Assembly (NCBI GenBank): GCA_945883565.1 | Contig: CAMCXO010000002.1 | Span: 124,001-188,000, forward strand | Source: Chryseobacterium gleum | GTDB taxonomy: Bacteria; Bacteroidota; Bacteroidia; Flavobacteriales; Schleiferiaceae | Direction of reading: 5' to 3' | DNA length: 64,000 nucleotides | In this document: positions 44,741 to 49,165 of the stretch, one piece after another | Numbering within the stretch: position 1 is the stretch's first letter | How the letters are laid out: each line of letters starts with the position of its first letter | The notes under the pieces: generated by a model | What the model was told of the DNA's origin: nothing | Databases searched by the model: none | What the model saw: only the letters and a program-made list of their open reading frames with translations | Made by a program: the position numbers and the translations under genes

Positions 44741-44906
44741 GGCACAGTTCGAACCGAAACAAAACTGCTCCAAATCAGAAAAATGGCACAATTCGAACCG
44801 AAAAACTTTTCGTGTTTTGTGGCACAGTTTCACCGAAATGGGTGGCACAGTTTCACCGAAATGGGTGGCACAGTTTCACCGAAATGGGTGGCACATTTCA
44901 AACCGT
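44741..44906. repeat. IS21-end-like repeats: six copies of a GGCACA...ACCG motif, three in perfect 23-bp tandem
   Basis: GGCACAGTTTCACCGAAATG starts at 44821, 44844 and 44867, an exact 23-bp period, with a degraded copy at 44890. Two related copies with GTTCGAACCGAAA start at 44741 and 44785. Multiple short terminal repeats of this type are characteristic of IS21-family ends, but no istA or istB gene lies nearby. This is therefore at most an orphan end. The small ORFs crossing it have the repeat in all frames and are not genes. Confidence 0.5.
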
Positions 44907-45036: not shown

Positions 45037-45072
45037 TTTCATAGCCCACGGTTTAAACCGTGGGCTATGAAA
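45037..45072. repeat. Perfect 36-nt palindrome (REP-like), copy 1
   Basis: The sequence is symmetric around TTTAAA, with half-site TTTCATAGCCCACGGTTT. The central 28 nt are repeated identically at 50376-50403. It lies 41 nt beyond the RM stop codon, so as RNA it could also act as a transcription terminator for the RM gene. Confidence 0.75.
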
Positions 45073-45185
45073 TGTATAGGATGTTATATGAATGGATTTA
45101 TCCATTTTTCATTTATGCGTTTTCCACAATTTTTATTTCCTCGTCCGTCAACTCGTAAAGTTGGTAAACCAATTGGTCTATTTGA
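45041..45185. repeat. 145-bp direct repeat, left copy
   Basis: This segment (palindrome, a small AATGGAT/ATCCATT hairpin and the last 24 codons of the RM gene) recurs in the same orientation at 50376-50520 with only about eight differences. The pair brackets the RM gene and the lipoprotein gene. Confidence 0.85.
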
Positions 45186-48100
45186 TTTTCTTCTTTGCTT
45201 GTGTCTTTGCCTTGCTGTTTCAATGTTGAAATTTCTTTTGACAACTTGCTTATTGATTTATCATTACTGCATTTCGGAATTGGTAATTTTTTGAATTCTT
45301 CAAGTCTGATTTTAGGAAATAAATCATCAAATTCGTTTTTTTCATACTTAAACAACCACACAAGCAATTTTGAACATAATACTCCTAAAACATAATAGAC
45401 ATCAACATTTTCATCTTTAGGAAGTGCGATATATAAACTACGGTCTATAATAAAATCTTCCTCAATTACAGCACAAACAAAACGTTCTCCGATAATTTCA
45501 CGAAACACTAATCTTGAGCCTTTGAAGAATTTTGGTTCTCTAGGAGCAGCTAACCAACTTCCGTAACTTATATAATGTTTGTTGTCCCATTTGTATTGAA
45601 ATGTTGAAACGTGTTTGCCTTTGAGTTCAGGAACAAATGTGTCGTCTTTTTGGATTGATGAATGATAAGCTCTTGTTTTAATAACTTCTTCTGTTTGCCC
45701 TCTGTATTTATCGTATGGATTTACTCCTCTAGTAATTTCAAATTTATCTTCAAGAATATTGCTGTTGCTTCTGATTTTTTTCAAGATTGGCAAAACCGAT
45801 TCATCAACTTCAACATCAAACACTAAATTGTCGTTTTCTAAAAATCTGTATTGATAAATTGAATTTTTGATAAAAGAGTTTTTTGATGAATTGAAATCAA
45901 AAATATCAAGAGAATTATCTTCGCTTTTGTGTTTAATTGCACTAAAAATGAGAGTATCAACTGAAGCTTCGTCAAACGCTTTTGCGATATTTGGATTTAG
46001 TGCTTTAACATCAAATTTATCAAGAACAAATATTCTTGTTTTTGACATCCTCAAATTTTTCAACCAAGAATTTGGTGTTATTAGTGAAATAACGCCTTTT
46101 GATTTTAGTATTCCATTTGACAACTCGATGAAAAAAGTATATAAGTCTAATTGATATTCCGCTGTTATATAAGTGTTGTTGAAAAACCTCTGATATTCTT
46201 TAAACGCAGAACCTGTTAAGTAAGGCGGATTCCCAATAACCACATCAAAACCCACAAAATCGCCATCGTCATTTAGCACTTCCGGAAATTCAAAACGCCA
46301 TTCAAAAGCGTTTTCAAAAATTTTATTCGACTTTATTTCATCACGTTCGGTTTCTAATTTGGCAAGTAATTCAACTGCTTTTTTATGATCATCGATTAGT
46401 TTCTTATCAATTTTTTCACCAAAAGATTTGAGATTAATGATTTTCATTGATAGGTTGTCTGCTTTACCTCTCGCCTCACTTATCTTCTTTTTGAAAGGTG
46501 TTTCAATTTCACTTCTGAAATCCGATTTAATATCGGCTATCAACCGTTCCATTTCTCGTTTTTGCTCCTTACTTTCAGCGTTGCGGTAGGTAGCAACGGC
46601 TATTTGGTAGCTGCTAATTGTCCACTTACTTTTTTGCAAGGCCTGTTTCAGTTCGGCATCAATGGCAAAACGGCTCACCAAAGAGTTTCCGCATTTTATG
46701 TTGATGTCGATGTTTGGAAGTGTTTGCAATTCTTTAAGCTCCCCTCCTTTGTAAGGAGGGGTGTCCGTAGGACGGGGTGGTTGCTTTCCAAAATAGCTTC
46801 TTACTTCATCCAATAATCCATCTGGATTATCCCAAACCCATTTATTCTCAAATCTCAGAACTCTTATACCAAATGTTTCTAGAAACAAAACTCTTTCTTT
46901 ATCATACTCTGCCTGTGCTGCTTCAAAATGCCCTTGACCATCTAACTCTATAGCCAAGCGTTCTTCAGGGCAATAAAAATCCAGTATGTAATTAGCAAAG
47001 CTATGTTGGCGTCTGAATTTTCTACCATTCATCTGTTTGCCTTTGAGCAATGTCCAAAGTTTGGCTTCTGCAGGTGTAAGGTTGTTGCGAAGTTCTTTGC
47101 GGAAGGTTTTAAGGTAAGGAAGGTTGTTGAGTTTGTAACCACCTCCCCCTTCGGGTACTCCTCCTTTAAAAGGAGGAGAGCCTATGTAGTAGGCATTTTT
47201 CAAAAGCTCAATCCACAAACGCAAACGGCAAATTTTTACTGAGTTGGGGTTAATATCCACGCCGAAAAGGCAGTTTTCTATAATGGTTTGCTTTTCGTGG
47301 AAAAGTGTTTCTTGTATTCGCTGACTTTCTTTATTGCTTGGGTTGTATTCGAAAAGATTGCCTTCTTCGTCTGTTACAATCAGTTCATCATTTACCACTT
47401 CCAACTGATATTCTTTTAGGCGTTTTCCGTCACGGTCTTGCAGAATTTTCAAGTCGTTTTTCACGGCAATTATCTCATTGAGTGCCGAAACCAAAAAGTG
47501 TCCTGAACCAACGGCTGGGTCGCAAATTTTGATGCTGTTTACAATTTTGTTGGCTTCTTTTCGGTCTTCAATTTTGTCGTAGAGTTCTTCAAGTGTTGTG
47601 CAGTTCCATTTTTTGCTTTCATTGAATTTCTGCACAACTGCTTTGCGAATGGTTTCACGACACATATACATGGTGATGAAACCGGGAGTGAAAAACGAAC
47701 CGTCTTTGTAGCCGTTTATTTTCTCGAAAATCAATCCGAGAACCGAAGCGTTAATCAGCGTTTTGTTGTCTTCCTGAATTTCTTCTCCGCCTTCGGCTCC
47801 AAAGTCGTATGCATCTAAAAACTCAAACAAGTATTGAAGCGTGGAAATATTGCCGGTCCGTTTCTTGCCTTGCTGGTCTTTCAGCACGGTTTGCGAAAAA
47901 ATCGGAATGGTTTTATTGTCTTTCAGGTTGCTGATAAACAAAGTGACCTGCTCAATATCTGTCGGCTCAAAAAGCGAAGAATTGAGATAAGGAACTTTCT
48001 CAAAAATCGTTATTACATCTTCGTTTCGCTCGTCATACTTGCGTGCCAAAACCTGAAAAAACAAGCTGTTCAGGTCGTCATAGTTTTTGATTTTGTTGAG

Positions 48101-49165
48101 GTTGAGAAACGAAAAAGATTTGTCGCCTTTGTGATAGGTGATGAGTTGCGCTTCTAGCAGCTTCAAAAACAAAATTCGGTTAATCCAAGTAATCGAAAGT
48201 TCAAGCGCAACATTAAAAAGTCGTTCCTGTTGTGTATTTCCGAATTGGTTTGGCTTTTCCAATCGCCTTAATTTATCTAAGCTGTCAAGCTGAATAATGG
48301 TATCTTCAAGGATTGTTCCTGTGTGCCGTTCGCCTGCTTTGTTCCGGTCAATCAGTTTTTTGCTTCCTTCTTTGGTTTCGGTCAAGCCGATGATGTGCAA
48401 CAGCTCGCTGTAAAAGCGTTTGTCAAGGCTGTTGCTGTCGTTGGTGAATGGGAGTTTTAAAAGATGCTCTGGCGAAAACAATTTGAATAATGCAATGAGC
48501 GAAATATCGTCTGCTTTGTCGGCATTGATTAACGGCTTTTGAAAGTCCTGAATGTTGAAGTAAGTAAATTCAATTTCTGATGTTATGTCGTCAATAAAAG
48601 GCTCTGCAATTTGTTTATAGAAAAAATCTGTTTTGGTGTCTGCCAATCGTCCACCTTCAAATTCTGTAAATTGCTTTACGAGACTTTTATTTTGAGCAAA
48701 AAGCCTGTCGAATAGGGTTGCGTCAAAAATGAACCATTCATTGATGTTGGTTGCGACTAAATGTTTTACTTCAAGATTTTTATGTGTAATTCTTTCTCGT
48801 AAGTAATACAAAACCAATTCCTGAAACGCTTTTGCGTTCAGTTTTTTGGTCGATATCATTTCCGTTTTATTGGTCGGTTTTTTCGCTTCGAGAATTACGC
48901 CAACTGTCGAGTTTGCATTTGGTCCGTTATGAATAACAAGGTCGTTTCGACCTTTGGTATTTATAAAATGGTTCGGGTCGTAATAGGTTTTCTTTAGAAA
49001 GTCGGAAACCAAGTTTTTGTGAAACTCTTCGCTTTCGGTGTCGTTTGTTCTGTGGAGTAAAGTAATGAGATTGGTCTTGAAACCTTCAATTTCAGTCCTG
49101 TTCGGTTTTACTTTTAAAAAGGCTTTGTTGAGTGCCTTTCTTGGTTTCAATTCTTTTAAAATCAT
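45113..49165 (-). CDS. Type IIG restriction-modification enzyme (Eco57I-like) with an in-frame DUF559 insertion
   Basis: The 1350-residue fused nuclease/methyltransferase begins MILKELKPRKALNKAFLKVK. The N-terminal PD-(D/E)xK nuclease has D75 (NDLVIHN) and E93-A-K95 (VILEAKK). The gamma-class N6-adenine methyltransferase has motif I DPAVGSGHF from D549 and NPPY at 979-982. The C-terminal third is the target-recognition region, ending QLYELTDEEIKIVENA. Residues about 662-809 are a DUF559 endonuclease domain splitting the conserved stretch between LRLWIELLKNAYY and LPNIDINIKCGNSL; without it the protein would be about 1200 residues. The gene is visibly richer in A+T than the surrounding housekeeping genes, suggesting horizontal transfer. 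No separate methylase or specificity gene is present, as expected for type IIG. Confidence 0.9.
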   Translation of the reverse strand: MILKELKPRKALNKAFLKVKPNRTEIEGFKTNLITLLHRTNDTESEEFHKNLVSDFLKKTYYDPNHFINTKGRNDLVIHNGPNANSTVGVILEAKKPTNKTEMISTKKLNAKAFQELVLYYLRERITHKNLEVKHLVATNINEWFIFDATLFDRLFAQNKSLVKQFTEFEGGRLADTKTDFFYKQIAEPFIDDITSEIEFTYFNIQDFQKPLINADKADDISLIALFKLFSPEHLLKLPFTNDSNSLDKRFYSELLHIIGLTETKEGSKKLIDRNKAGERHTGTILEDTIIQLDSLDKLRRLEKPNQFGNTQQERLFNVALELSITWINRILFLKLLEAQLITYHKGDKSFSFLNLNKIKNYDDLNSLFFQVLARKYDERNEDVITIFEKVPYLNSSLFEPTDIEQVTLFISNLKDNKTIPIFSQTVLKDQQGKKRTGNISTLQYLFEFLDAYDFGAEGGEEIQEDNKTLINASVLGLIFEKINGYKDGSFFTPGFITMYMCRETIRKAVVQKFNESKKWNCTTLEELYDKIEDRKEANKIVNSIKICDPAVGSGHFLVSALNEIIAVKNDLKILQDRDGKRLKEYQLEVVNDELIVTDEEGNLFEYNPSNKESQRIQETLFHEKQTIIENCLFGVDINPNSVKICRLRLWIELLKNAYYIGSPPFKGGVPEGGGGYKLNNLPYLKTFRKELRNNLTPAEAKLWTLLKGKQMNGRKFRRQHSFANYILDFYCPEERLAIELDGQGHFEAAQAEYDKERVLFLETFGIRVLRFENKWVWDNPDGLLDEVRSYFGKQPPRPTDTPPYKGGELKELQTLPNIDINIKCGNSLVSRFAIDAELKQALQKSKWTISSYQIAVATYRNAESKEQKREMERLIADIKSDFRSEIETPFKKKISEARGKADNLSMKIINLKSFGEKIDKKLIDDHKKAVELLAKLETERDEIKSNKIFENAFEWRFEFPEVLNDDGDFVGFDVVIGNPPYLTGSAFKEYQRFFNNTYITAEYQLDLYTFFIELSNGILKSKGVISLITPNSWLKNLRMSKTRIFVLDKFDVKALNPNIAKAFDEASVDTLIFSAIKHKSEDNSLDIFDFNSSKNSFIKNSIYQYRFLENDNLVFDVEVDESVLPILKKIRSNSNILEDKFEITRGVNPYDKYRGQTEEVIKTRAYHSSIQKDDTFVPELKGKHVSTFQYKWDNKHYISYGSWLAAPREPKFFKGSRLVFREIIGERFVCAVIEEDFIIDRSLYIALPKDENVDVYYVLGVLCSKLLVWLFKYEKNEFDDLFPKIRLEEFKKLPIPKCSNDKSISKLSKEISTLKQQGKDTSKEENQIDQLVYQLYELTDEEIKIVENA
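46739..46782 (+). repeat. Inverted repeat of the DUF559 element, left
   Basis: 44 nt beginning CTCCCCTCCTTTGTAAGG and ending GACGGGGTGGTT. It aligns without gaps to the reverse complement of 47137-47180. Confidence 0.75.
47137..47180 (-). repeat. Inverted repeat of the DUF559 element, right
   Basis: 44 nt which, read on the minus strand, begin CTCTCCTCCTTTTAAAGG and end GGGGGAGGTGGTT, matching the left repeat in order and length. Confidence 0.75.

Follow-up and report, generated by a model that had tools for sequence, protein, structure and literature searches.

A palindrome-bounded DUF559 nuclease cassette translated within a type IIG restriction-modification gene is probably a copy of a mobile element

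INTRODUCTION

A selfish element that enters coding DNA is believed to require either self-splicing, as in introns and inteins, or a tiny size, as in the Rickettsia palindromic elements (RPEs). In a 64,000-nucleotide stretch of Chryseobacterium gleum DNA (here called the window), a type IIG restriction-modification (RM) gene contains a segment that is bounded by inverted palindromes and encodes, in the frame of its host, a nuclease domain of the DUF559 family. The locus raises the question of whether this segment is a mobile element that survives in a gene by being translated, as an earlier note on this DNA had proposed, or a stable domain fusion that equips the RM enzyme with a second nuclease. 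Our analysis favors the former: the cassette is probably a copy of a mobile element, its own Vsr-like nuclease being the likely driver of movement and in-frame translation sparing the host gene.

RESULTS

The host gene (positions 45113 to 49165, minus strand) is an open reading frame of 1350 amino acids with no internal stop codon. It encodes a type IIG/Eco57I-like RM enzyme with DUF7149, DUF7814, Eco57I methylase, and TaqI_C specificity domains. The inserted element (46739 to 47180, minus strand) measures 442 bp from arm to arm and is open in the host frame throughout, as the earlier note had claimed; its figure of 438 bp from hairpin to hairpin (46741 to 47178) is also correct. Pfam places DUF559 at residues 686 to 789 of the RM protein (E = 5e-29), where it interrupts an Eco57I match running from 631 to 1054, which bears out the description of a complete nuclease domain splitting an Eco57I stretch. 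DUF559/MTES_1575 were the only Pfam matches to the insert, a search of the window protein for an intein-splicing domain found none at E = 1e-3, and Rfam gave zero matches at the gathering score between 45000 and 49500. The predicted protein reads NAYY-insert-LKELQTLPNIDINIKCGN at the junction; in three RM relatives from the same bacterial family (one in genome G357 and two in G006), the sequence is the uninterrupted NAYYKNATELETLPNIDINIKCGN. Orthologs lacking the insertion, for which the earlier note had asked, therefore exist, and relative to them the window gene has gained a net 441 bp, or 147 codons. The insert would form a surface loop in the window RM enzyme; an AlphaFold model of fragment 470 to 1060 (seven sequences) had a mean pLDDT of 43 and was set aside. 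Near the gene, a perfect 30-bp palindrome, CATAGCCCACGGTTTAAACCGTGGGCTATG, lies just 3' of the RM gene at 45040 to 45069 and is possibly a terminator, and GGTGGCACAGTTTCACCGAAATG-like tandem repeats occupy about 44800 to 44905, between a purL-like gene and the RM gene.

The two inverted arms, 46739 to 46782 and 47137 to 47180, are identical at 34 of 44 positions without a gap. By comparison, the best inverted pair of 44-mers at a spacing of roughly 300 to 500 bp over the window's first 46 kb matches at 28 of 44. Both arms fold as DNA better than shuffled sequences (z = -4.15 and -2.68). In coding orientation, the 5' arm (47137 to 47180, minus strand) reads CTCTCCTCCTTTTAAAGGAGGAGTACCCGAAGGGGGAGGTGGTT and is translated as the Pro/Gly linker SPPFKGGVPEGGGG; its hairpin 1 has a 9-bp stem (47158 to 47178, minus strand) and its hairpin 2 a weak 3-bp stem, CCC-GAA-GGG (47147 to 47155, minus strand). 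The 3' arm (46739 to 46782, plus strand) is the inverted copy CTCCCCTCCTTTGTAAGGAGGGGTGTCCGTAGGACGGGGTGGTT, whose minus-strand translation is the Pro/Gly-rich linker PPRPTDTPPYKGGE. It comprises hairpin 1 with the 9-bp stem CCCCTCCTT-TGT-AAGGAGGGG (46741 to 46761, plus strand), hairpin 2 with the 4-bp stem GTCC-GTA-GGAC (46763 to 46773, plus strand), and the inward tag GGGGTGGT (46774 to 46781, plus strand), which recurs in arms from many phyla. Thus, the 44-nucleotide inverted repeats with two hairpins each that had been noticed at this locus stand, with the reservation that the second hairpin is weak on the 5' side. A repeat search at default settings reported no arm pair here, presumably because the arms are imperfect.

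Between the arms, the DUF559 domain covers host residues 678 to 793 (46787 to 47134, minus strand). Its AlphaFold model (pLDDT of 91) matched the solved structure 3hrl (Z = 15), the homing endonuclease I-Bth0305I (Z = 10.8), and Vsr (Z = 9.4), and its sequence profile also matched I-Bth0305I (E = 3e-4). Residues D52, E63, D65, H69, and D78 of the domain, which are D729, E740, D742, H746, and D755 in host numbering, were invariant in 71 DUF559 sequences, so that the Vsr-like catalytic fold is joined with the conserved E, D, H, and D residues of the EDxHD family. dN/dS was about 0.06 where computable, a rough value given that it is the median from 12 pairs with synonymous sites near saturation; as judged from this divergence, the nuclease is under purifying selection. 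The Vsr/I-Bth0305I fold, the invariant residues, and the low dN/dS together make it likely that DUF559 is an active nuclease, and the form fused to the RM enzyme may be active too. Among 50,697 phage records, 3 contain a relative of the domain, and among 72,556 plasmid records, 42 do; this rarity indicates that carriage is mostly chromosomal.

Six further loci carry a cassette at the same RM site, with differing arms. Among these and the window copy, seven in all, DUF559 identity roughly parallels that of the N-terminal host half. Since the seven copies diverge roughly together with that half, the window copy now appears to be stably inherited with its gene, and this co-divergence, taken alone, would fit a stable fusion. 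The earlier proposal of a mobile element must be qualified to that extent for the window gene itself; it is supported by what was found elsewhere, namely, other hosts and empty alleles, and the refuting outcome that the note had named did not occur.

Beyond this RM family, where the earlier note had suggested looking, the cassette occurs in RM enzymes of other types as well as in housekeeping genes. The clade of the window nuclease (domains 73 to 92% identical) is also present in HsdS-type subunits (L040, L041, and probably L044) and at a different position of an Eco57I-family enzyme, another IIG site (L043); L041 and L043 have closely similar 5' arms. Housekeeping proteins with in-frame DUF559 cassettes include IleRS, LeuRS (two sites), MetH, IcmF (two sites), and RecG, and further hosts are a RecB-like helicase, HsdR, HsdM, HsdS, type ISP, MmeI, and Eco57I proteins (several sites). 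RM and methylase proteins were the most frequent hosts in this sample, which was drawn in order of search rank and is no full survey of hosts. Terminal fusions were seen with HemF, HisF, PurL, and N-formylglutamate amidohydrolase, in reading frames taken from stop to stop that possibly include read-through from a neighbor. Mapped onto solved homologs, the insertions fall between nearby residues (538|541 in IleRS, 236|243 in LeuRS, 752|771 in MetH, and 516|519 in RecG). At five loci (L034, L035, L038, L039, and L044), tandem in-frame repeats of the inner half of the 5' arm lengthen the linker, as in the VENTTTHPQGE repeats of L044.

Fixed insertion sites with empty alleles in relatives were found for RecG and IleRS. 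Within a single genus, the RecG site is filled in 3 genes and empty in the other 55 (58 in all); WKK-NE-IPPH in the empty form becomes WKK-(148 codons)-IPPH in the filled form, two codons being replaced in frame for a net gain of 438 bp. The IleRS gene carries the insert in two of four congeners and lacks it in the other two; in either of the two carriers, the filled gene is the sole IleRS copy found. Same-site DUF559 copies occur in different families and patchily within a genus and mostly make up clades of their own; moreover, the filled IleRS pair shows no co-conversion peak. On the strength of these clades and the missing peak, most present copies look to have been inherited with the host gene.

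That the cassette is a discrete unit is seen in loci L061 and L062, which were placed in different phyla and share 463 bp at 98% identity but otherwise have nothing in common. The common stretch stops at the outer edges of the palindromes, except for a few left-hand bases, TGGATAAA. Both loci, like several genomes in the comparison, come from metagenome bins, and their phylum assignment is uncertain, but their surroundings plainly differ. Furthermore, genome G134 holds two copies with 85.5% identity over 490 bp, and palindrome-rich genomes other than that of the window contain gene-less inverted arm pairs spaced about 90 to 180 bp apart (L182, L188 to L190, L193, and L195). Stop codons interrupt several DUF559 copies, as is expected of a decaying element. 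No target-site duplication was seen at the RM, IleRS, RecG, L061/L062, and L257/L266 junctions, for which a near-identical empty site was lacking. In L062, the element (1296 to 1733) lies at the end of an apparently truncated BRO/DinD-like reading frame, beside a short ORF6N-like remnant. Altogether, mobility of the element is well supported by these sequence comparisons. Such similarity shows that the unit moved and not which enzyme moved it.

The arms recur as an architecture and not as one sequence. Stand-alone DUF559 genes from many phyla, with unlike arm sequences, are flanked by a conserved hairpin, a variable second hairpin that still pairs, and an inward G-rich tag. An inverted-repeat score of at least 24 was found in the flanks of 84 of 156 DUF559 loci, compared with 4 of 465 positions taken as controls from these loci. 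The first hairpin and the tag were in part selected by our arm search pattern, which left the second hairpin unconstrained; second-hairpin stems of at least 4 bp were present in 59% of arm segments versus 15% of shuffles, with 43 distinct stem types. That this hairpin changes and yet pairs argues that the structure of the arms matters as nucleic acid, since protein linkers would not keep pairing. Arm similarity also correlated with nuclease similarity (Spearman coefficient of 0.46, reached in 0 of 500 permutations; 0.36 for pairs <60% identical), a correlation partly accounted for by genome relatedness.

We also counted the palindrome CCCCTCCTN{2,8}AGGAGGGG in 296 Bacteroidota genomes. It was present in 44 of 126 genomes with DUF559 and in 8 of 170 without (551 versus 20 copies), and the exact palindrome was absent from 82 of the 126. 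With the large family f31 left out, which was the sole correction for kinship, the association held at P = 3e-9. In the genome of the window (G000), where repeats were counted with a single pattern, 5'-arm-type copies lie in C62 (L006 to L008), C14 (L004 and L012), C22 (L005), and C8 (L009 to L011). They are spaced about 1.5 kb apart amid Fic, toxin-antitoxin-like, and other small genes, resembling an array of repeated cassettes, and these copies probably multiplied with the array and not by separate insertions.

DISCUSSION

Comparison across genomes and hosts reveals a discrete unit, present in many hosts and at many sites, with empty alleles, recurrent arms, gene-less arm pairs, and a nuclease that by its divergence is under purifying selection. 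We consider it likely that the window cassette is a copy of such a unit. The element, about 440 to 500 bp long, would consist of two inverted palindromic arms around a gene for a nuclease of the Vsr/EDxHD fold and would insert into intergenic DNA, or into reading frames when length, frame, and site permit. Within a reading frame, it would be translated as an extra domain with the arms encoding linkers, and host proteins, essential ones included, would presumably function without splicing. Survival inside genes is best read as the outcome of frame preservation and linker-like arms, not of splicing. The nuclease itself, we infer from these sequence patterns, drives the spread: it would recognize the arms or an empty allele and cut the DNA, whereupon the element would be copied in by homing or by hairpin-dependent transposition. 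After insertion, copies would pass on mainly with the host gene, as in the window RM gene.

These two routes divide our confidence in the main explanation between them and are not additional to it. Hairpin-dependent transposition of the RAYT/REP kind, in which the nuclease would recognize the hairpins of the arms and move itself as well as gene-less arm pairs, is possible and is put forward tentatively. It fits the preserved pairing of hairpin 2 through sequence change, the gene-less inverted pairs, the co-variation of arm and nuclease, a palindrome copy number that tracks DUF559, and the unit common to L061 and L062. On the other hand, the Vsr-like fold is not that of a known transposase, and we know of no strand-transfer chemistry for DUF559. 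Homing proper, in which the nuclease would cut insert-free alleles of the gene that hosts it, gene conversion would copy the insert, and new sites would be gained rarely, is doubtful as a full account. The kinship to I-Bth0305I in both fold and sequence suggests it, as do the site-specific clades and the patchy occurrence of same-site copies in different families. In two Microcystis loci (L103 and L110), and only there, DUF559 lies inside a weak, subcutoff Intein_splicing match of a DNA methylase-type protein, which suggests DUF559 as an intein nuclease. However, the footprint of co-conversion is absent in IleRS, and homing does not account for arms around stand-alone genes or for arm pairs that enclose no gene. 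Homing into empty alleles and hairpin-based movement may both operate.

Passive carriage, in which RAYT or another transposase spread the palindromes and DUF559 was caught between two of them, is unlikely. Y1 transposases occur in 196 of the 296 genomes, including most of those rich in palindromes, and their raw Spearman correlation with palindromes is 0.26. Nonetheless, the partial rank correlation with palindrome copies is 0.10 for Y1 transposases given DUF559, versus 0.45 for DUF559, and in palindrome-carrying genomes, 0 of 20 Y1 loci had a palindrome within about 500 bp; on these two results, a Y1/RAYT transposase is not supported as the partner of the palindrome. The architecture, furthermore, recurs around DUF559 in unrelated phyla with differing arm sequences. 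An ordinary domain fusion, with DUF559 recruited by RM enzymes as a second nuclease and kept for its aid to restriction, is very improbable: the frequency of RM and methylase hosts, the purifying selection on the domain, and the host-like divergence of the seven RM copies agree with it, but as a general account it is contradicted by IleRS, LeuRS, MetH, IcmF, and RecG, hosts with no conceivable use for restriction in which DUF559 also sits, often between arms of this kind. These hosts show that the domain is not confined to RM enzymes, as an accessory nuclease of type IIG enzymes would be. The fusion account also passes over RM relatives that lack DUF559 and leaves the palindromic arms and gene-less pairs unexplained.

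If the cassette is a mobile element driven by its own nuclease, DUF559, a common domain to which no function has been assigned, would be a mobility enzyme of a new class. It would also be a candidate partner for one or more classes of bacterial palindromic repeats, and its annotation within RM or housekeeping proteins could be taken to mark an insertion. We are evenly divided on the broadest form of this view, in which a widespread and undescribed class of elements bounded by palindromes would owe its mobility to dedicated DUF559 proteins, a Vsr-type nuclease would take the place of a transposase, essential genes would be invaded without splicing, and the arms would serve both as DNA recognition structures and as protein linkers. 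In the open-access literature, we found no prior report joining DUF559 to palindromes or to in-frame insertion, and judged from that literature the element looks undescribed. A complete nuclease gene appears to persist in IleRS, LeuRS, MetH, and RecG through frame preservation alone, and such inserts reveal natural protein loops that tolerate a domain of about 120 residues.

Among known systems, the stand-alone DUF559/PRK09767 genes share the Pfam family (PF04480) and the solved relative 3hrl with the cassette; they are annotated as a domain of unknown function, however, and the family description includes neither palindromic arms nor in-frame insertions. Inteins with a homing endonuclease likewise place a nuclease in frame in conserved, often essential proteins, but the window protein has no intein-splicing domain, and the arms and nuclease, once translated, are presumably retained in the mature product. 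Homing endonuclease families, the EDxHD family among them, have been reviewed, and I-Bth0305I has an extended DNA-binding region (PMC3943268). The cassette resembles I-Bth0305I in the fold of its catalytic domain, its conserved acidic and histidine residues, and its residence at fixed positions of conserved genes, for which relatives have empty alleles; in contrast, it lies outside any intron or intein, has no splicing domain, and is a compact domain without the extended DNA-binding region.

Y1 transposases are the known partners of REPs. REP/RAYT systems (REPtrons and REPINs) are similar to the element in having tagged hairpins, inverted pairs with a small nuclease-type gene between them, and gene-less inverted pairs too, the last seen here in genomes other than that of the window. 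They differ in that the enzyme is a Vsr-fold DUF559 protein instead of an HUH Y1 transposase, the insert matching DUF559/MTES_1575 only, and in that the tag beside the hairpins is GGGGTGGT-like instead of the unpaired terminal GTAG of REPs. Di Nocera and colleagues described GTAG and CGTC REPs as well as intragenic REPs, the CGTC type apparently being without a dedicated transposase and having a terminal CGTC-type motif, an 8- to 9-bp stem beginning with A-T pairs, and a CCA tail (PMC3733652). The hairpin 1 stems of the collected arms are instead of the CCCCTCC/GGAGGGG type, which sets them apart from CGTC REPs. RPEs and intragenic REPs, finally, are palindromic DNA found in frame in many unrelated genes and translated as extra residues (PMC3733652). 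The element of the window type is likewise palindromic and in frame in many unrelated reading frames at different sites; RPEs, as described, encode short stretches of residues, whereas the coding capacity of this element extends to an entire conserved nuclease domain (about 116 amino acids).
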